From positions 1-32,678 of the forward strand of contig CACZFT010000026.1 in the NCBI GenBank assembly GCA_902780535.1: a stretch of DNA of 32,678 bases, in the 5' to 3' direction. This DNA comes from an uncultured Selenomonas sp. GTDB lineage: Bacteria; Bacillota; Negativicutes; Selenomonadales; Selenomonadaceae. The position numbers and the translations under genes are program-made. Numbering within the stretch: position 1 is the first letter of the stretch; the number at the start of each line of letters is the position of its first letter. Under the pieces are notes generated by a model, which was given only the letters and a program-made list of their open reading frames with translations, made no database searches and had not been told where the DNA came from. Below, in pieces: positions 11,612 through 27,144 of the stretch.

Positions 11612-11995
11612 TCAACCAACCTGTCCGTGCTTTTCGAGATGACGGATTTCTCTGACGTGGTTCTTTTCATCGACCATGACGACGGTCGGCTGGTAGGCGG
11701 CCGCTTCTTCCTGCGTAAAGAAAGCGTAGCACATGATAATGACGGTGTCGCCGGGCTGGACGAGGCGGGCCGCTGCGCCGTTGAGGCAGATGACGCCAGA
11801 ATTGCGCTCGCCTGGGATGACGTACGTTTCGAGGCGGGCGCCGCTCTCGTTGTCAACGACCTGCACGCGCTCGTTCTCGAGGATGCCCGCCGCCTCCATG
11901 AGGGCGCGGTCGATGGTGATGCTGCCCATGTACTGGAGGTTGGCCTCCGTGACCTTGGCCGCATGGATTTTCGATTTGAGAAGATTGAGAATCAC
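11612..11995 (-). CDS. panD: Aspartate 1-decarboxylase PanD
   Basis: PanD makes beta-alanine from aspartate with a pyruvoyl group formed by self-cleavage. With the GTG start at 11995 the protein is 127 residues, exactly the usual length, begins (M)[10 protein letters not shown] as in the family, and has the cleavage site Gly24-Ser25 in MGSITID. AAGGA lies eight bases before this GTG. The frame is open 13 codons further to an ATG, but those codons overlap the panC end and match no PanD. It starts 16 bases after the panC stop, last in the operon. Beta-alanine is the PanC substrate, so the pair makes sense. Confidence 0.96.
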
Positions 11996-12011
11996 GATAC
12001 GTTCCTTTCTT

Positions 12012-12866
12012 TCAGCCGAGAATGACATTGTCAATCAGGCGCGTCTTGCCGATGTAGACGGCGATGGCGAGCAGGCAGGGCTCCATGACCTTGTCCGCCT
12101 CCTGGAGCGCCGGATACGTGTAGAGATCGACGTAGTCGACCTTCGCGAGCGGCTCCTGTTCGAGTTCGGCGCGCGTGACGGCCTTGAGCGCTTCCGCGCT
12201 GTGCTCGCCCGCTTCGTAGGCTTCCTTCGCCTTGCGCAGGCTGCGCGAAAGGACGACGGCGGCCTGTTTTTCCTCGGCGCTCATGTAGCTGTTGCGGGAA
12301 CTGCGCGCAAGGCCGCTTTCCTCGCGGCAGATCGGCACCATGCAGACCTCGACGGGGAGGTTCAGATCGGCGACGAAGCGGCGCACGACGGCGACCTGCT
12401 GCGCGTCTTTCTGGCCGAAGAATGCCTTGTCGGCCCGTGTGATGTTCATGAGCTTCGTCACGACCGTCGCGACGCCGCGGAAATGGCCCGGACGGCGCGC
12501 GCCGCAGAGGATGTCCGTGATGCCGTTCTCGACCGTGATGTACGTGCCGTAGCCCGCCGGATACATCTCCTCCGGGCTCGGATGGAACACGGCATCGACG
12601 CCCTCGACTTCGAGCTTCTGGCAGTCGGCGTCGAACTGGCGCGGATACTTGTCATAGTCCTCGTTCGGGCCGAACTGGACAGGGTTGACGAAGACGGACG
12701 CGATGACGATGTCGCAGGCTTTGCGCGCTGCGCGCATCAACGTCATGTGGCCTTCGTGGAGCGCGCCCATCGTCGGGCAGAGGCCGATGGTCTTGCCTGC
12801 AGCCTTCTGCTCTTTGGCATAAGCGATGGTTTCAGCGACAGTCGTAAAGATTTTCAGATCACTCAT
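12012..12866 (-). CDS. panC: Pantothenate synthetase PanC
   Basis: PanC joins pantoate and beta-alanine using ATP to make pantothenate, the CoA precursor. The 284-residue protein has the nucleotidyl-transferase motif [10 protein letters not shown] (31-40), VFVNPVQFG, the second ATP motif FGQKDAQQ, and RSSRNSYM near the KMSKS-like loop. GAGGA lies about eight bases before the ATG. The start overlaps the stop of the transporter gene by eight bases, so transporter and PanC are coupled. No panB or panE lies in the window; pantoate must come from genes elsewhere or from import. Confidence 0.97.
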
Positions 12867-13809
12867 TGTAGGCTTCCTCTTTTCGTGTCAGACGGTCATC
12901 GCGGCGCGCGAAATAGTTCGCGACGAGCGAGCCCGAGATATTGTGCCAGACGGAGAAAATCGCGCCGGGGATGGCGGCGGCGGGGTCGAAGTAGAGCACG
13001 GCAAGCGCGGCGGCGAGGCCGGAGTTCTGCATGCCGACCTCGATCGAGACCGTGCGGGCGCGGCGGCTGTCCATGCGGCAGACCTTCGCGAGGCCGTAGC
13101 CGAGCGCGAGACCGATGACATTGTGCAGCACGACGATGACGGCCATGACGGGGCCGACGGCGAAGAGCTTCGATGCCGAGAGCGACACGACGCCGCCGAC
13201 GAGCAGCACGATGCAGACGACGGAGATGACGGGCAGCACGGGCTCGATGCGCGCGATGCGGCGGCCGAGCAGGTGGTGCGCCGCGAGGCCGAGCAGCACC
13301 GGCGCGAGCACCATTTTCGCAATCGAGAGCATCATGGCGGCCGCCGAGACCTCGATGCGCGCGTCGGCGTAAAAGAGCGTCAGCGCCGGCGTCACGATGG
13401 GCGCGAGCAGCGTCGTCATCATCGTCATCGAGACGGAGAGCGCGACATCGCCGCGCGCGAGGTACGAGATGACATTCGACGCCGTGCCGCCCGGGCACGT
13501 GCCGACGAGGATGACGCCGATCGCGAGCTCTGGCGGCAGGCCGAACGCCTGCACGAGCCCGAACGCGACGAGCGGCATGATGAGGAACTGCGCGGCGACG
13601 CCGATCGCCACATAACGCGGCTGGCGCAGCACGGCGCGGAAATCATCGACGGAGAGCGTCATGCCCATGCCGAACATCACGATGCCGAGCATCCAGCTGA
13701 CATACCCGCCGACCCACGTCAAAAGCTCCGGATGCCACGCGCCGAGGGCGCCGGCCAGCACGACGAAAACCGCCATGTCATCGACGAGGAATTTTGCCAA
13801 TCGTTTCAA
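12859..13809 (-). CDS. BASS-family transporter, candidate pantoate/ketopantoate carrier (TTG start)
   Basis: This is a bile acid:sodium symporter family membrane protein with about nine or ten hydrophobic segments. It has the family motifs GMGMTLSVDDFR, GTCPGGTASNVISYLARGDVAL, and EVGMQNSGLAAALA followed by SVWHNISGS. I start it at TTG 13809 because a perfect AGGAGG (13817-13822) lies seven bases upstream and homology begins there, giving 316 residues. The frame stays open 68 codons further, but that region is the leader with an intrinsic terminator. BASS relatives include a ketopantoate transporter in Salmonella (PanS) and plant proteins that move pantoate. Coupling to panC makes a pantoate-type substrate likely, by inference. 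Confidence 0.9.
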   Translation of the reverse strand: MKRLAKFLVDDMAVFVVLAGALGAWHPELLTWVGGYVSWMLGIVMFGMGMTLSVDDFRAVLRQPRYVAIGVAAQFLIMPLVAFGLVQAFGLPPELAIGVILVGTCPGGTASNVISYLARGDVALSVSMTMMTTLLAPIVTPALTLFYADARIEVSAAAMMLSIAKMVLAPVLLGLAAHHLLGRRIARIEPVLPVISVVCIVLLVGGVVSLSASKLFAVGPVMAVIVVLHNVIGLALGYGLAKVCRMDSRRARTVSIEVGMQNSGLAAALAVLYFDPAAAIPGAIFSVWHNISGSLVANYFARRDDRLTRKEEAYNE

Positions 13810-13865
13810 AAAAAGACCTCCTTCTGCTGAAAACAACGTACGGCGTTGCAGCAAAAGAAGGCGAA

Positions 13866-13898
13866 CAAAAAACGCGCACGGCAAAAAACCATGCGCGT
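13866..13898 (-). terminator. Intrinsic terminator in the pan operon leader
   Basis: On the - strand ACGCGCATGG (13898-13889) pairs with CCGTGCGCGT (13881-13872) with one wobble, followed by a run of T to 13867. It lies about 60 bases before the BASS start codon and about 135 bases after the promoter start site, so it ends transcription before the coding region unless prevented. Confidence 0.75.
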
Positions 13899-14033
13899 AT
13901 CTTTCCGTAAACATCGTGCAGCACGCGCGTTTTTCCGCCGTCCTGTTCCCCTCGGATACAGGCAGCGCGTCGGCGCGTGCCGTTTGAAATTTTGAAAAGT
14001 ACAACCCGCCCAAGCGGTGTCATCTTTTGCCAC
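13899..14033 (-). promoter_or_regulatory. Candidate attenuator/riboswitch leader of BASS-panC-panD
   Basis: The RNA from about 14033 contains GGCA-CGCG-CCGA-CGCG-(C)-TGCC, a local hairpin (about 13960-13981). GCACGCGC within it (13980-13973) can instead pair with GCGCGTGC (13928-13921). GCGCGT of that second segment can instead pair with ACGCGC of the terminator left arm (13898-13893). This gives sequester, antiterminator and terminator states that exclude each other. I could not match it to TPP, FMN, cobalamin, SAM, T-box or other common aptamers. A ligand such as pantothenate or CoA is only a guess. Confidence 0.5.
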
Positions 14034-14039
14034 GGCAAC

Positions 14040-14068
14040 AGACTAGCACATTTCTCTCGAAAAAGCAA
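14040..14068 (-). promoter_or_regulatory. Promoter of BASS-panC-panD operon
   Basis: On the - strand TTGCTT (14063-14068) and TAGTCT (14040-14045) are 17 bases apart. The expected start site near 14033 leaves a leader of about 225 bases before the TTG at 13809. Confidence 0.65.
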
Positions 14069-14085: not shown

Positions 14086-17000
14086 TCACTCCTGCGCCGC
14101 TGCGTCATCCGCAGCGTCATCGGCAGCATCTTCTGCTGCCGCGCCCCCATCCTCTTCGGATGATGCTTCCGAAGCCGGAGCTTCCTCCTTGTGCAGCACG
14201 AGGTCCGTGGATGCCGTATCGACGGTCGTGCCGCTCATGAGCGGGCGCGTGCCGTAGATGGCGAGCTCGAGACCCTGCTGATCGAGGACGACGGTGTCGC
14301 CGCCATCCGTGCGGCTCGAAGCATCGATGGTGAGGTCGCCAAGGTCTGCCAAGACGTCGCTGACGCGGATGACCGTGTCTTCGAGCGTCAGGAAGCGCCG
14401 TGCGCGCAGGCCGTCTTCTGGGCGGTAGCCGCCCTCGTTTACGGGGCGCTCTTCTGCGGGCTGGCGATCCTCTGCGGTTTGATCCTCCTGCTCCTTTTCC
14501 TTCTCTTCCGTCTGGTTCGTCTGCTGAACCGTCGCCGCAACGACGGAACGCGCCCGCGTCACCGGCGTTCCGCTGTCTTCGGAAAGCAGCGTCGCCACTT
14601 TTTGCGCCATCGAATGACCCGGGGAAGATGGATCATCCTGCGCGGACGGCTGCGGAGCATCCGGCCGGGCAGGGTTCTCCGGCGTTGATGGAACATCCGG
14701 CGTTGACGGTTTTTCCAGCGTCGACGGGGTATCCGGCGTTTCAGGAACATCGGACGGCTGCGGCTGCGGATCGGATGGATTCGATGGATTCGATGGGTTC
14801 GATGGATTCACCGGGCGGGATGGATTGGATGGAACCGGAGCCGGCGGCGGATCCTGCACGATGACGTCGCCTGGCGCATAGGTCAGGTTGTAATCGCTGT
14901 AGGCCTTGTAAACCGCCGAGCTGTCGATCGGCGCTGCCTCAGTCTGTCCCGTGTACGTCCCGATCTTCGTCGCATCAAAGGAGGCGTCCGGCACGAGACT
15001 CGTCTTGAAATACGTGTCGGCTGCCGCCCGGCTGCCAAGCGCATCGCGGTCGTGGCCGATGCGGAAGCCCTCAAATGTCACGGGCGCAAAGACGAACGTG
15101 CCGTTCTCGCTGCCGACATTCCGCGTGGCATCGCCTGCGCGGACGGTCAGGTCGGCCGGCGTCACTTCATAGGTGAGCATGCCAAGCTTCAGCGTATAGT
15201 TCGGCGTCAGCGTATCGCTCGTCGTCGCGGCCGGCGTCTTTGCCTGCGCAGTGTCGAGCGCGGTGACGTTGCCGTCCGCATCGCGGCGGACATGCGTCGT
15301 CTCGTCGATGCCGTTCGCTTTCAAAACCTTTTCAGCAAAGGCTGCCGCATGGTCCGTGTCGATGACGTTGTCGAGCGTATCAAGATTTTTCAGCTGCGTC
15401 GCAGCCGTCGCTCCCGCGCTGGCCTGTGCTGCGGGCTTGTCGCCATAGACATGGCCGCCCTTCACGTCGTACGTCAGCTCGGCGGGGTTCACCTGGTAGC
15501 TGCCGCCCGTGACATGGATGTCGTAGTTCTTGCTGCTGTAGATGCCGTCGAGGCTGCCGTCCTTCAGGTCGTAGGCGATGATGTTGCCATCGTCGTCCGT
15601 GCGGACCCACGTTTTTTCGTCGATGACGTCGCTCGTGCCTGCCTCCTTGCCGCCCGCGGCGATGCCGTTCTTCGCCGCCTCGATTGAACGCAGCGTAAAG
15701 GGCTTGTCTGTCTTGGCGGCAAAGCCCTCGAGCTTCGTGACGTCGCCCGCGGTATTTGCAGCATCCCAGGACTTCAGTGCGCCATCATCCGTGCCGTCAT
15801 CATCTGCAGCGCCATGCTGAGTCTTCGCCTGGACTTTCGTGAACTGGCTGAGGTCGTTCGCCTCGCCATAGCCGCGCGCGCCATCGGCCGTGATGTCGAG
15901 CCGGGCTTTTTCGACCTTCCATGTGCCGTCTGTGACGCCTTTGTCATCCAGTTCGTAGTTCTTGTTGCCCCACGTCTCGATGGCACTTTGGAGCGCGTCC
16001 TGCTTTGCGCCGACCGTATAATCGCCGGCGTCGGACTGGCGGAGCTCCTTTGCCGCGCCATCTTTCACGGTGTAGTTCTCATTCCCCTTTCCTGCAAAGG
16101 CCGCCGCGAGTTTTCCCTGTTCCTCTTTCGATGTCACGTCGTCCTCTGCGAAATTCGAGAACTTGCCCGTGAACGTCGGCGTCTCGCCATACGTCGTCGC
16201 CTTGTTATCTGCCGCAAAGGTCAGCTTGCGCCGGACGACGGTTTCCTTGCCTTCCAGTGGTGCCGTGCCGCCCGCCGGGTTGATGTTGTAGTTCTTGTAG
16301 GCCGACTTCCCCTTCTTGATGGCCTTGCCATCAGCACCTAGCAGGCTCTTGTCGACGAGCGCTGTCGCGCCCTCGATCGCCTCCCCGGCATCGCTCATCT
16401 TTGTGATGCCCTTGGCCTTGTCCGTCAGCTTCGAGCCAAAATATGACTGTCCGGCCGTTCCGCCCAAAGTGTTTTCATCATGCGCTTCGAGCCCCGTAAA
16501 CGTGACATCGGAGAACGTGACATTCTTGTCGGTATTTTCATCACCATAGACTTTCGTGGCGTCGCCGGCGCGGACGGTCAGGTCTTTCCGTTGGACGGTG
16601 AAATCGCCTTTCTCGTACGTGATGTCGTAGTCATTGAGATAGAGGCTGCCGTTTGCGGCCGAGAGCACGCCCTTGTAGGCAGCGACGTTCTCGCCATCTT
16701 CGGCGTATTTCACGCCGAGCGTCGCGTCGTCGAGCTCCTTTTCTTTGTCGCCGTCCTTGGCCTTGGCATGCTGGAAGTCCGCTACGAGGTCGTTGGCCTT
16801 GGTGGCGCGGTCCTCGTAAATGGCCGACTCCGCCGCAACTTTGTCGTGATCTCTCAATTTAGCTTTTCCCGCAGCATCGACATCATAGACCGCCGTGACG
16901 GGTCCGTCGTCCTTTGCCTTGGCCGCCGTGCCTTTCATGAGCTCGAGCTTGCCGCTGTCGTCTTTCAGCGTCGTGTCGCCATAGGTTTTCTCGTTGTTGT

Positions 17001-20000
17001 TGACCGTGAAGACGGCTTTTGCCGGATCGACACGGTAGTAGAGCTTGCCCGATGTCAGGACGTAGTTTGTCGTCAGGGCATCTGCATTGCTTCTCTGCGC
17101 TGTTGTGGCTGGATCTCCGTAAATCAGTCCTTCGTCGAGGATAGCGACCGGTTTGCCATTTTCATCGCGCTTGACATGGGTATTTGCCGTGATGTCGTTG
17201 TCCTTGAAAATCTCCTTGACGAGGTCCTGCGCGTTGCCGGCATTGACGACATCCGTGATCTTGTCGCCATTCTTCATGAGGTTGCCAGGATCGGCTGCGA
17301 GCTCGTAGGCGGGATTTTCCTTGTTCGGCGTTTCGCCATACGTGTGGTAGCCCGTGACATTGTAGATGAGGTGGACGGGATGGATCTGGTACGTGCCAAA
17401 ATCGGCCGCCGTCGCATCCTTCTTGTTGCCCAGGTAGACGATGTTATATTTTTCGCTTTCAAAGACGGTGTTGCCATCTTTGTCGAGGAAGCTGCCCGCG
17501 GCAATCGTATAGGGCTTCGGATCCTTGCCCGTGCCATAGACCCACGTCTTGGCATCGATGACGGGATGGTCTTCCGATTCGGCCGTGCCATCGCCGCGCC
17601 CTGCCACGATGCCGTTCTTTGCTTTCTCCGCTGCGAGGATGGTCACTTTGTCCTTGTCGTTCTGCGGGCCTTTGTAGAATGTCATCTTCGACAAGTCATA
17701 GCCAATGATGTTTCCGTCCTTGTCCTTCACGACGGGCGAGTGCGAAAAATCGTATGTGCCGTCCAGATTCTGGGCACTGCCCGCGATATCCCAGGGGTTC
17801 AAGCGGCCGGTATCAAATCCATTATCCACGCCATCGCCCGTGGTATTGGCCTGCACGATGAGTTTCAGCGTGCCCATCGTGGTGTCCGAGCCATACTCTC
17901 GCTCGCCGCTCGCCGTGAAATAGAGCGTCGGTTTGAGGACGTTCAGGATAGACTCCGTCCGCGGCTTGTTCTCGTCGTCGGTTTCCTTCGTGAAATCGAT
18001 GAGATAGTTGTAGTTTTCTTCCGCCCGATACGCCTCGATGTCCTTGCCATCGGCGACGCCTGTGAGGTTCAGCGTGTAGCTCGTCTTCGGCAGCTGCTGG
18101 CGGTTTTTGAGGTCGTCGCCTGGCGTGACGGACATGTCGATCGCGCCACTCGTCGCCTGGTCGGTTTTCTTGCCATCGTAGTCAATGATTTCCGCCTTGA
18201 GGAACGGCAGTTCCTTGAGCTGCGTCGTCGGGTTGATCTCCTCGCTGTTCTCATTCGCGAGGCCGTTCACAGTGACGGGCTTGCCGTCCTTGTCGTTTTC
18301 CGTGTGCGTCAGCGTGATGATGTACGTCGTGCCCTGCGTTGGCGCGGTTTCCGAGGCCGTCCACGTTCCCGCATCTTTGTTATAGGAATAATACGTCGAT
18401 TTCGTGACGTTCCCTGTTTCATCGGTCTCATCATAACGGTAGACATAGCCTTTCGTCAGCTGGCCGTACGTCTTCGTGACGTTCTCGATCTGGATCTTGA
18501 CGGGCTCCGGCGTGATGATGACGCTGGCGTCCGCATCCGTATAGTAGCCGTGCTGCGGCGACCAGAGGTCCGACTTGTCGTACTGGTAGACGGAGGAATG
18601 GTCGGTGTTCGCATTTTCGCTGCCCGTCGCGACTTGGTAGTCGCCCACATGGTCTTTTTCGACGATATTGACGCCTTTCGTGTAGACGTTCTTGCCATAG
18701 CCTTCGTCCTTGTCGCTCGCGAAGAACGCGCCGCCATAGTAGTTGCTGACATCGGACGTGACGAGGTTGTGCACCGTGCCGTCGTACTGGTACTGGCGCT
18801 TGATGTCGATGGACGTCATGAATGTCTTTAAAAGCGGTGCCGTCTGGTTGTTGTAGGCGATCCAGTCGCCATTCTGCGCATGATCTTTGCTCATGGCCGT
18901 CGAGCCATCGCTCCAGCCGATGTTCTCGGACTGCGTCAGCTGCTGCATCGTCAGGCCCTCGGCATACGCAGAGGACGACCCGGACGATGTACCGACAGCC
19001 GCGAGGCCTCCTTCCGAAAGGTATTCGCCCGTCGCTTCGTTCTTTGTGGCGAAAAAGACTTTGTTCTGCGCATCCTGTCCGAGCGTGCCGCCCGCGAACG
19101 TGCCGACAATGCCGCCCGTCATCGTGAGATCCGGCTTGCCGTCTGCGTCCGAGCCGCCTGTGACCTTGCCTTCGCTGTAGTCCTGGTTCACCGTGCCGGC
19201 CGTCATCGTACCGATGAGGCCGCCGACATTCGGCTTGCCCGTGACACGGGCGTCACGGTACGCCATGCGGTTGTTGTTGTGGCGCAGGTTGCCCGCGGGG
19301 AGATCATCGGTTGCGATGTGATCTGCCAAGACGGTCGTTGTCTCGCTCCCATCCGCATTCTTTGTCACTTTCGAACGCGTCCATGTTGCCGTGAGGACAT
19401 CATACGTGTAGACGCCGTTGAGGTCGTTTTTGTCGAGACCTTTTGCCGACGCCTGCTCTGCCGCATCCACGCCCTGCGTGACAGTGAAGCCGACGTATTC
19501 GCCTTCATCTTTGCGGTTTTCAGCCGTCAGGTGGCTGCCATTCGCTCCCTGCTTCGTCATGAGAATCGTGTTGTTGTCGGCATTGTAGGCTTTCTTGACC
19601 GTGCCGCCCGTCATGGTACCGACGAGGCCGCCGACATCGTTTGTGCCTTTGACATCGCCCGCATTGTAGGCGTTCTCGATCGTGCCGCCAGACATCGATC
19701 CAACGAGGCCGCCGACGCCGCTGCTCTCCTGCGTGACCGTCTCCGTCGTGCCATCGTCTTTTGTGATGGCAGCCACCTTGTCGACGCCCGTGACGCGGCC
19801 ATAGACGCTCTCGTCTTTGACCTGCCCCTCGTCCGTCAGGATGGAGACAGCGTTGTTCGCGTAGCCGCGCGTCTCGCCTGCCTTTTTCCCATTCGCATTC
19901 GACGATTCATTCGTGTTGTAGACGCGCGCCATTTCGGCATCGCCCGACATCGTGCCGACGAGGCCGCCGACGTTTTCCATGCCAATGACATTGCCGGAAT

Positions 20001-20244
20001 TATAGACGTCGCTCTGGTAGTTCTTCTGGTTCTCGAAGCGCGTCGTGCCGGAGAGATTGCCGACGAGGCCGCCGACATTCTTCTCGCCTTCGACGACGCC
20101 GACTTTGTAGCCGCGATTCGCGCCTGTGCCATAGGTCTCTTTCTTGGTGAAATCGCCAGCGATTTCCGTGACCTTGCCATAGGATTGGAGGTTGCCGGAG
20201 CTCGGCGTATCGTAGTCATATTCCTCCGTCGTGCCGAGGCTCAT
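14086..20244 (-). CDS. TpsA-type giant adhesin, C-terminal part (after frameshift)
   Basis: These 2052 residues continue the exported adhesin begun at 22880. Residues 1-430 carry GLUG-type repeats (NVGGLVGTMSGG and variants). About 590-1715 carry MBG-type domains marked by recurrent TYG/VYG motifs (KTYGQ, REYGS, HTYGE, KTYGD, KVYGD, TTYGE, RGYGE, HVYGD). About 1798-1870 are a Pro/Ser/Asn-rich linker (NPSNPSNPS). The last 180 residues have a small conserved-looking segment (RARRFLTLEDTVIRVSDVL) and an acidic, alanine-rich tail. It lacks a signal peptide, so it could not be secreted as a separate protein. Its ATG at 20244 overlaps the preceding stop as ATGA, but no strong ribosome-binding context supports independent translation. 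Confidence 0.85.
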   Translation of the reverse strand: MSLGTTEEYDYDTPSSGNLQSYGKVTEIAGDFTKKETYGTGANRGYKVGVVEGEKNVGGLVGNLSGTTRFENQKNYQSDVYNSGNVIGMENVGGLVGTMSGDAEMARVYNTNESSNANGKKAGETRGYANNAVSILTDEGQVKDESVYGRVTGVDKVAAITKDDGTTETVTQESSGVGGLVGSMSGGTIENAYNAGDVKGTNDVGGLVGTMTGGTVKKAYNADNNTILMTKQGANGSHLTAENRKDEGEYVGFTVTQGVDAAEQASAKGLDKNDLNGVYTYDVLTATWTRSKVTKNADGSETTTVLADHIATDDLPAGNLRHNNNRMAYRDARVTGKPNVGGLIGTMTAGTVNQDYSEGKVTGGSDADGKPDLTMTGGIVGTFAGGTLGQDAQNKVFFATKNEATGEYLSEGGLAAVGTSSGSSSAYAEGLTMQQLTQSENIGWSDGSTAMSKDHAQNGDWIAYNNQTAPLLKTFMTSIDIKRQYQYDGTVHNLVTSDVSNYYGGAFFASDKDEGYGKNVYTKGVNIVEKDHVGDYQVATGSENANTDHSSVYQYDKSDLWSPQHGYYTDADASVIITPEPVKIQIENVTKTYGQLTKGYVYRYDETDETGNVTKSTYYSYNKDAGTWTASETAPTQGTTYIITLTHTENDKDGKPVTVNGLANENSEEINPTTQLKELPFLKAEIIDYDGKKTDQATSGAIDMSVTPGDDLKNRQQLPKTSYTLNLTGVADGKDIEAYRAEENYNYLIDFTKETDDENKPRTESILNVLKPTLYFTASGEREYGSDTTMGTLKLIVQANTTGDGVDNGFDTGRLNPWDIAGSAQNLDGTYDFSHSPVVKDKDGNIIGYDLSKMTFYKGPQNDKDKVTILAAEKAKNGIVAGRGDGTAESEDHPVIDAKTWVYGTGKDPKPYTIAAGSFLDKDGNTVFESEKYNIVYLGNKKDATAADFGTYQIHPVHLIYNVTGYHTYGETPNKENPAYELAADPGNLMKNGDKITDVVNAGNAQDLVKEIFKDNDITANTHVKRDENGKPVAILDEGLIYGDPATTAQRSNADALTTNYVLTSGKLYYRVDPAKAVFTVNNNEKTYGDTTLKDDSGKLELMKGTAAKAKDDGPVTAVYDVDAAGKAKLRDHDKVAAESAIYEDRATKANDLVADFQHAKAKDGDKEKELDDATLGVKYAEDGENVAAYKGVLSAANGSLYLNDYDITYEKGDFTVQRKDLTVRAGDATKVYGDENTDKNVTFSDVTFTGLEAHDENTLGGTAGQSYFGSKLTDKAKGITKMSDAGEAIEGATALVDKSLLGADGKAIKKGKSAYKNYNINPAGGTAPLEGKETVVRRKLTFAADNKATTYGETPTFTGKFSNFAEDDVTSKEEQGKLAAAFAGKGNENYTVKDGAAKELRQSDAGDYTVGAKQDALQSAIETWGNKNYELDDKGVTDGTWKVEKARLDITADGARGYGEANDLSQFTKVQAKTQHGAADDDGTDDGALKSWDAANTAGDVTKLEGFAAKTDKPFTLRSIEAAKNGIAAGGKEAGTSDVIDEKTWVRTDDDGNIIAYDLKDGSLDGIYSSKNYDIHVTGGSYQVNPAELTYDVKGGHVYGDKPAAQASAGATAATQLKNLDTLDNVIDTDHAAAFAEKVLKANGIDETTHVRRDADGNVTALDTAQAKTPAATTSDTLTPNYTLKLGMLTYEVTPADLTVRAGDATRNVGSENGTFVFAPVTFEGFRIGHDRDALGSRAAADTYFKTSLVPDASFDATKIGTYTGQTEAAPIDSSAVYKAYSDYNLTYAPGDVIVQDPPPAPVPSNPSRPVNPSNPSNPSNPSDPQPQPSDVPETPDTPSTLEKPSTPDVPSTPENPARPDAPQPSAQDDPSSPGHSMAQKVATLLSEDSGTPVTRARSVVAATVQQTNQTEEKEKEQEDQTAEDRQPAEERPVNEGGYRPEDGLRARRFLTLEDTVIRVSDVLADLGDLTIDASSRTDGGDTVVLDQQGLELAIYGTRPLMSGTTVDTASTDLVLHKEEAPASEASSEEDGGAAAEDAADDAADDAAAQE
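14777..14812 (-). repeat. 9-bp tandem repeat in adhesin linker
   Basis: Four consecutive 9-base units based on GGATTCGAT encode the NPS repeats of the proline-rich linker. Such units can expand or contract by slippage. Confidence 0.8.
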
Positions 20245-26597: not shown

Positions 26598-26683
26598 TGG
26601 TGGGCAGGGATGGATTCGAACCATCGTAATCCGAAGATGACAGATTTACAGTCTGTTCCCTTTAACCACTCGGGCACCTACCC
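26598..26683 (-). tRNA. tRNA-Tyr (GTA)
   Basis: Acceptor GGGTAGG pairs with CCTGCCC; anticodon loop CTGTAAA gives GTA; a long variable arm and T-arm GATGGTTCGAATCCATC follow; CCA is encoded. It is the last gene of the tRNA operon. Confidence 0.96.
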
Positions 26684-26689
26684 ACAATA

Positions 26690-26767
26690 TGGTGACCCAG
26701 GGGGGATTCGAACCCTCGACCCTTTGATTCGTAGTCAAATACTCTAATCCAGCTGAGCTACTGGGCC
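26690..26767 (-). tRNA. tRNA-Arg (ACG)
   Basis: Acceptor GGCCCAG pairs with CTGGGTC (one wobble); anticodon loop CTACGAA gives ACG, read as ICG after deamination; T-loop GGTTCGAATCC; CCA encoded. Confidence 0.96.
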
Positions 26768-26789
26768 ATATTGTAAAATATATATTTTT

Positions 26790-26881
26790 GAAGCACCAAC
26801 TGACTCGGTCAGAGGAAGCTATTTGCCTATCGGCAAATGGCTAAAATATCTGTAAGCGCTGAAGCGCTAACAGCTATTTTA
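26790..26881. repeat. Degenerate repeat R7 and palindromes inside tRNA operon
   Basis: Three inverted repeats fill this spacer: CTGAC/GTCAG (26800-26812) within GCACCAACTGACTCGGTCAGAG-like remnants of the local repeat; ATTTGCC/GGCAAAT (26821-26838); and a 19-bp arm pair with two mismatches (26842-26860 and 26863-26881) whose hearts are AGCGCT-GA-AGCGCT. They may direct processing of the tRNA transcript. No T-run terminator is present. Confidence 0.6.
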
Positions 26882-26958
26882 TGGTGGGCCCACTTGGACT
26901 CGAACCAAGGACCGACCGGTTATGAGCCGGATGCTCTAACCAACTGAGCTATAGGCCC
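26882..26958 (-). tRNA. tRNA with CAT anticodon (Met, or Ile2)
   Basis: Acceptor GGGCCTA; anticodon stem-loop CCGGCTCATAACCGG gives CAT; T-loop GGTTCGAGTCC; CCA encoded. It is not an initiator form. The GGCTCATAACC loop is shared by elongator Met and lysidine-modified Ile2 tRNAs of Firmicutes, so identity depends on tilS modification. Confidence 0.93.
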
Positions 26959-26988
26959 AAAACATTCCTATGATGCTTTCAAACAAAA

Positions 26989-27064
<76 letters not shown>

Positions 27065-27068
27065 ATAT

Positions 27069-27144
<76 letters not shown>

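Follow-up and report, generated by a model that had tools for sequence, protein, structure and literature searches.

A diverged pan RNA ahead of a putative pantoate-salvage operon in Selenomonas, a candidate double-lock switch

The operon and its leader

The window, that is, the whole stretch of 32,678 nucleotides analysed here, carries on its minus strand three consecutive genes encoding a BASS-family transporter, the pantoate-beta-alanine ligase PanC and the aspartate decarboxylase PanD (Table 1). The true start of panD may lie nearer 11995 than the listed reading frame indicates. Against NF047939, the PanS model, the transporter scores 302.4 bits where the equivalog cut-off is 400 bits, so we term it PanS-like only, with a putative substrate. 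The PanS family is one of ketopantoate/pantoate/pantothenate transporters. The transporter's nearest solved chains include 3zuy and 8oyf/8oyg, which are of the type of ASBT-NM, a BASS-family protein for which pantoate binding was shown (PMC10645422).

Operons made of panD, panC and panS serve pantoate salvage in Clostridiales, Tissierellales and Veillonellales (PMC6593275). The same three functions are united in the window's operon, although here the order is panS-like, panC, panD and a pan RNA stands ahead of them. The window's genome also has an unlinked panB (C104) and a panE-like gene (C143), so that salvage adds to synthesis in this organism; many relatives with the operon have no panB.

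On the minus strand, the leader of the operon begins with a promoter (14068-14040) and continues to the TTG start codon (13809). Scanning the leader with a plain sigma-70 consensus did not reveal this promoter. Its extended -10 element, TGnTAnnnT, nevertheless recurs at the equivalent position in 77 of 80 related leaders, where shuffled DNA gives 4.2, and the first-pass annotation, which had placed a promoter here with an RNA start about 225 bases before the BASS gene, was therefore right. We infer a transcription start near 14033, about 224 bases upstream of the TTG; the RNA starting there reads GUGGCAAAAGAUGAC, whose later bases begin the first of two hairpins described below. The 5' end set by the conserved promoter is GUGGCAAAAG.

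Taken as a whole, the leader has an unusually stable predicted fold (z -5.5, matched by none of 200 shuffles), and the intrinsic terminator that had been proposed at 13866-13898 was found, with its stem and T run, between the promoter and the first gene. The earlier view of a regulated leader with a terminator ahead of the transporter-panC-panD operon is thus supported. On its other side, the promoter is closely preceded by the end of a 2052-aa reading frame (14086-20244, minus strand), which has no Pfam match, is rich in GGLVG-type and YG-type repeats and perhaps encodes a repetitive surface protein.

Table 1. Features of the leader and operon, in order of transcription (positions in the window)
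Feature	Position	Strand	Details
Promoter	14040..14068	-	TTGCTT (14068-14063), spacer, extended -10 TGCTAGTCT (14048-14040)
RNA 5' end, 5' arm of predicted long-range helix P0	14023..14033	-	GUGGCAAAAGA
Pan hairpin 1	13997..14026	-	bulged A's at 14018 and 14000; RF01749 and lineage model R1
Pan hairpin 2	13938..13965	-	bulged A's at 13957 and 13941; RF01749 and lineage model R1
Switch segment of the first-pass annotation	13921..13928	-	GCGCGUGC; may close a helix around pan hairpin 2 with linker GCACGCGC
Intrinsic terminator	13866..13898	-	11-bp stem (13898-13872), then T run
3' arm of predicted helix P0	13848..13858	-	UCUUUUGCUGC; also part of the anti-SD strand
Predicted SD-sequestering hairpin	13816..13862	-	GCCUUCUUUUGCUG (13862-13849) with CAGCAGAAGGAGGU (13829-13816)
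BASS-family transporter	12859..13809	-	TTG start; PF01758; nearest named family PanS
panC, pantoate-beta-alanine ligase	12012..12866	-	PF02569, E = 1.6e-106
panD, aspartate decarboxylase	11612..12034 (listed ORF)	-	PF02261, E = 5.5e-52

Membership of the pan RNA family and its regulon

At the default threshold, tRNAs were the sole Rfam families matched (five tRNA genes are clustered at 26601-27144, minus strand). At a relaxed threshold, the pan RNA family RF01749 matched positions 13934-14026 with 33.9 bits, the gathering score being 36.2, and with E-values of 2.7e-4 in a 361-base search and 5.2e-4 genome-wide; this is the sole pan match in its genome. Matches to mir-244, Hrs12, trpB and other families at the same relaxed threshold were rejected as chance matches (E at least 0.29). 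The region 13938-14026 of the minus strand holds two hairpins in tandem, each with both bulged A's of RF01749.

We built a lineage model, R1, from 26 relatives, leaving out the window's genus. It scores 35.5 bits in the window (E = 1.7e-5), also matches the genus-mates G001, G003, G005, G006, L042 and G002, and gives no further match over the rest of the window's genome. The pan stems of 26 relatives outside the genus have 99.6% of their cells paired, with changes on both sides at 13 of the 20 pairs, and their covariation score of 0.484, against 0.243 in shuffles, was reached by none of 500 shuffles. Across the order, a pan match occurs in 89 of 189 genomes, 73 of them above the cut-off. One copy missed by R1 is that of L043 (about 2705-2765), where the apical loop of pan hairpin 1 bears a long extra hairpin, AAGGAAACGCTGAC...GTCAGTGTTTCCTT, resembling a small palindromic insertion.

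The BASS-panC-panD genes directly downstream fit the usual pan context of panB, panC and panD operons. Its sequence, its structure, the bulged A's and the genes downstream all identify the leader as a diverged pan RNA (RF01749). It shares with the family the tandem hairpins, the two bulged A's in each, the position upstream of pantothenate genes and the terminator that lies 3' of most members, but it falls just below the gathering score, has a GC-rich linker, and shows two elements beyond the RF01749 model, a long-range 5'-end helix and an SD-locking hairpin. The first-pass annotation had called the leader unassigned, a label that no longer applies; its caveat that the known pan motif might be present was borne out, albeit by a match short of the gathering score.

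The pan motif was described in 2010 by Weinberg et al., who favoured a dimeric protein-binding motif and named just panB, panC and aspartate decarboxylase genes (PMC2864571). Among the later papers searched we found annotation mentions only, none of which explains mechanism or signal. Most pan RNAs in the order stand before BASS-panC-panD, panC-panD or panB; others precede panF. In two genomes a pan RNA lies 5' of yhdT-panF (L145, 480-2226; L146, 588-2368), with TIGR02119 scores of 478 and 505 bits, and the pantothenate symporter gene panF thus seems to be a member of the pan regulon in these relatives.

Two further associations were observed. In L026 (1829-2428), a pan RNA scoring 57 bits lies 5' of the S component of an ECF transporter, possibly a gene for uptake of pantothenate (PanT-like) or of another vitamin. 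The Megasphaera-like L221 and L222 have a second pan RNA before a gene starting MRLGIIGAGRVGASF, which on visual inspection resembles a ketopantoate reductase gene; panB follows about 950 bases 3' of the pan RNA.

Pairings of the RNA 5' end, the terminator and the SD sequence

In the window, the RNA 5' end can form a duplex of -17.8 kcal/mol with 13848-13858, equalled in 6 of 200 shuffles; its segment GGCAAAAG has CUUUUGC as long-range partner. Most Negativicutes leaders likewise have a 5' end complementary to a segment some 20-60 bases before the start codon. The arms of this pairing vary: besides GGCAAAAGA/UCUUUUGCC, we found GACAAGGGA/UCCCUUGUC in genus g3, GUAACAAAC/GUUUGUUAC in g7 and g9, GGCAAACAG/CUGUUUGCU before panB and GCAAAUCUAGAUAA/UUAUCUAUAUUUGC in G001. 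Pair types were counted by script, since MAFFT shifted some of the arm pairs. Among the 18 distinct arm pairs, 157 of 162 cells are paired and changes on both sides occur at all nine helix positions.

As these arms were picked with the helix in view, significance rests on permutation. Thirty-one representatives, one or a few per lineage, were scored against shuffles and their partners were permuted: the cognate mean z was 1.35, against 0.59 for permuted partners (p = 1e-4), and an earlier run had given p = 5e-5. A first test over a wide 130-base 3' region (cognate 20.5, non-cognate 18.3) was superseded by these narrower ones. Control DNA from upstream of the promoter was flat (-0.19, p = 0.88). 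No 5'-end helix was detected in the Bacilli (0.23, p = 0.40), nor in genera g16, g20, g21 and part of g19. This comparison across leaders shows a covarying long-range helix predicted to join the RNA 5' end to the segment that otherwise locks the SD sequence. The last four bases of its 5' arm double as the start of pan hairpin 1; a shortened form of the helix may coexist with pan 1, the shared bases being AAGA only.

Within the window's genus, folding shows that the pre-SD segment of P0 can instead lock the SD. The predicted hairpin of the window, whose 3' strand CAGCAGAAGGAGGU contains the SD GGAGG (13821-13817), has 14 bp, a stability of -24.8 kcal/mol and a z of -5.5. Equivalent hairpins are found in the genus-mates G003, G005, G006, L042 and L043, with z from -2.7 to -4.8 (the six genomes together give -5.5, -3.8, -4.0, -4.4, -2.7 and -4.8). 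In leaders from outside the genus this segment often pairs with the SD too, though weakly (mean z -0.95). Three of the genus-mates, G003, G005 and G006, have no usual separate terminator and show only the SD hairpin with a T run after it.

The 5' end has a second potential partner in the terminator, where the loop and 3' arm (13888-13877, UUUUUUGCCGUG) could pair with it at -16.9 kcal/mol in the window (6 of 200 shuffles as good) and at -18.8 kcal/mol in L042 (3 of 200). Other genera and the Bacilli present another overlap: the 3' strand of pan 2 matches the 5' arm of the terminator and could form an antiterminator, for example GAGACAGAAAGGC with GCCTTTCGGTCTT or GGACGGAAG with CTTCTGTCC. For Negativicutes and Bacilli pooled, the cognate z of this pairing is 1.34 against 0.75 (p = 4e-4), the p-values of the two groups alone being 0.04 and 0.41, respectively, and a linker control gave -0.25. 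The window and its genus gave no signal for it. Attenuators of the trp-leader type operate through successive 1-2, 2-3 and 3-4 pairings. Many relatives are similar in that pan 2, the putative antiterminator and the terminator share strands in this order, whereas the window's genus has no 2-3 pairing.

A different alternation had been proposed in the first-pass annotation, which described neither the pan hairpins nor the SD-sequestering hairpin (13862-13816) nor the long-range pairing of the 5' end. In that three-state attenuator, termination would be set by a choice of the segment GCGCGUGC between GCACGCGC, around pan 2, and the 5' arm of the terminator. Both segments are indeed present on the minus strand, GCGCGTGC at 13921-13928 and GCACGCGC at 13973-13980; their helix is the best perfect one in 13900-13990 (score 27, reached by 4 of 200 shuffles and thus better than 196 of them), occurs in the predicted fold and may form. 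However, it has no counterpart at the equivalent place in four genus-mates (L042/G004, G003, L043 and G001), and the antiterminator side would comprise just 6 bp against the 11 bp of the terminator. The lack of counterparts leaves the three-state layout unsupported; we rejected it as a conserved mechanism and consider it very unlikely as an explanation of this leader. Covariation in relatives is seen in the pan stems and the 5'-end helix instead, and the conserved alternative pairings predicted here use segments other than GCGCGTGC and GCACGCGC.

Possible modes of action

How might such a leader respond to the state of the pathway? We infer from these overlaps a double-lock OFF switch. A signal, carried most likely by a protein and possibly by a ligand, and reporting pantothenate or CoA sufficiency, would stabilise both pan hairpins. 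Stabilised pan 1 would tie up the 5'-end bases AAGA, and the 5' end would then be unable to invade either the loop and 3' arm of the terminator or the anti-SD strand. Transcription would terminate, and any read-through RNA would keep its SD in the hairpin. When the signal is absent, the 5' end would pair with the terminator segment and with the anti-SD strand, so that the terminator would open and the SD would be freed. Bound pan 2 would in addition, in other genera and in Bacilli, hold its 3' strand away from the putative antiterminator. Sufficiency of pantothenate or CoA is the probable signal because a pan RNA also stands before yhdT-panF, where a pantoate signal makes little sense. Since both the terminator and the SD hairpin persist in the minimum-energy fold computed for the window, an ON state would have to arise kinetically or with the help of a factor. 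That the leader is a diverged pan RNA on a pantoate-salvage operon, working as a double-lock OFF switch of this kind, is a proposition to which we give equal weight for and against.

A rival account is a plain pan RNA controlling termination only: the hairpins would bind a dimeric protein, the terminator alone would matter, and the complementarity of the 5' end would protect the mRNA 5' end or be a leftover of promoter conservation, with no role in translation. Terminators do follow the pan RNA in most genomes, the Bacilli do without the 5'-end helix, and a dimeric protein-binding motif was already suggested in 2010 (PMC2864571). The 5'-end helix covaries, however, members of the window's genus share a strong SD hairpin, and the SD hairpin with its T run is found without the usual separate terminator in G003, G005 and G006; we hold this simpler scheme to be rather unlikely. 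It is improbable, in our estimate, that the tandem hairpins act as a riboswitch binding pantothenate, 4'-phosphopantothenate or CoA directly: a selective aptamer would be expected to be larger than two simple 10-bp hairpins with bulged A's, and those who described the motif preferred a protein (PMC2864571), even though the pan RNA before panF, a sodium/pantothenate symporter gene, makes the signal fit the end product rather than pantoate, and no natural CoA riboswitch was known as of 2022 (PMC9971707).

The double lock and direct sensing could also be combined. The pan RNAs of Negativicutes would then be double locks with the 5' end as mobile strand, for which the pan hairpin, the terminator and the anti-SD strand would compete, and the hairpins themselves would sense CoA or pantothenate. 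We find this joint reading highly doubtful; if true, direct sensing of CoA or pantothenate would make it the first natural riboswitch of a CoA class.

The family itself is known, and what is new here is the long-range architecture linking the 5' end and the SD, together with the association with panF. We found no prior description of the long-range 5'-end helix, the SD-locking hairpin or the panF link in a search that covered only a minority of subscription journals. The comparison of some 80 relatives provides a concrete, testable idea of how pan RNAs could switch vitamin B5 genes, with named strands whose swap can be probed by point mutants. It would also widen the pan regulon to pantothenate uptake through yhdT-panF, and it links the pan RNA to pantoate salvage, a possible route of cross-feeding in gut and rumen bacteria.
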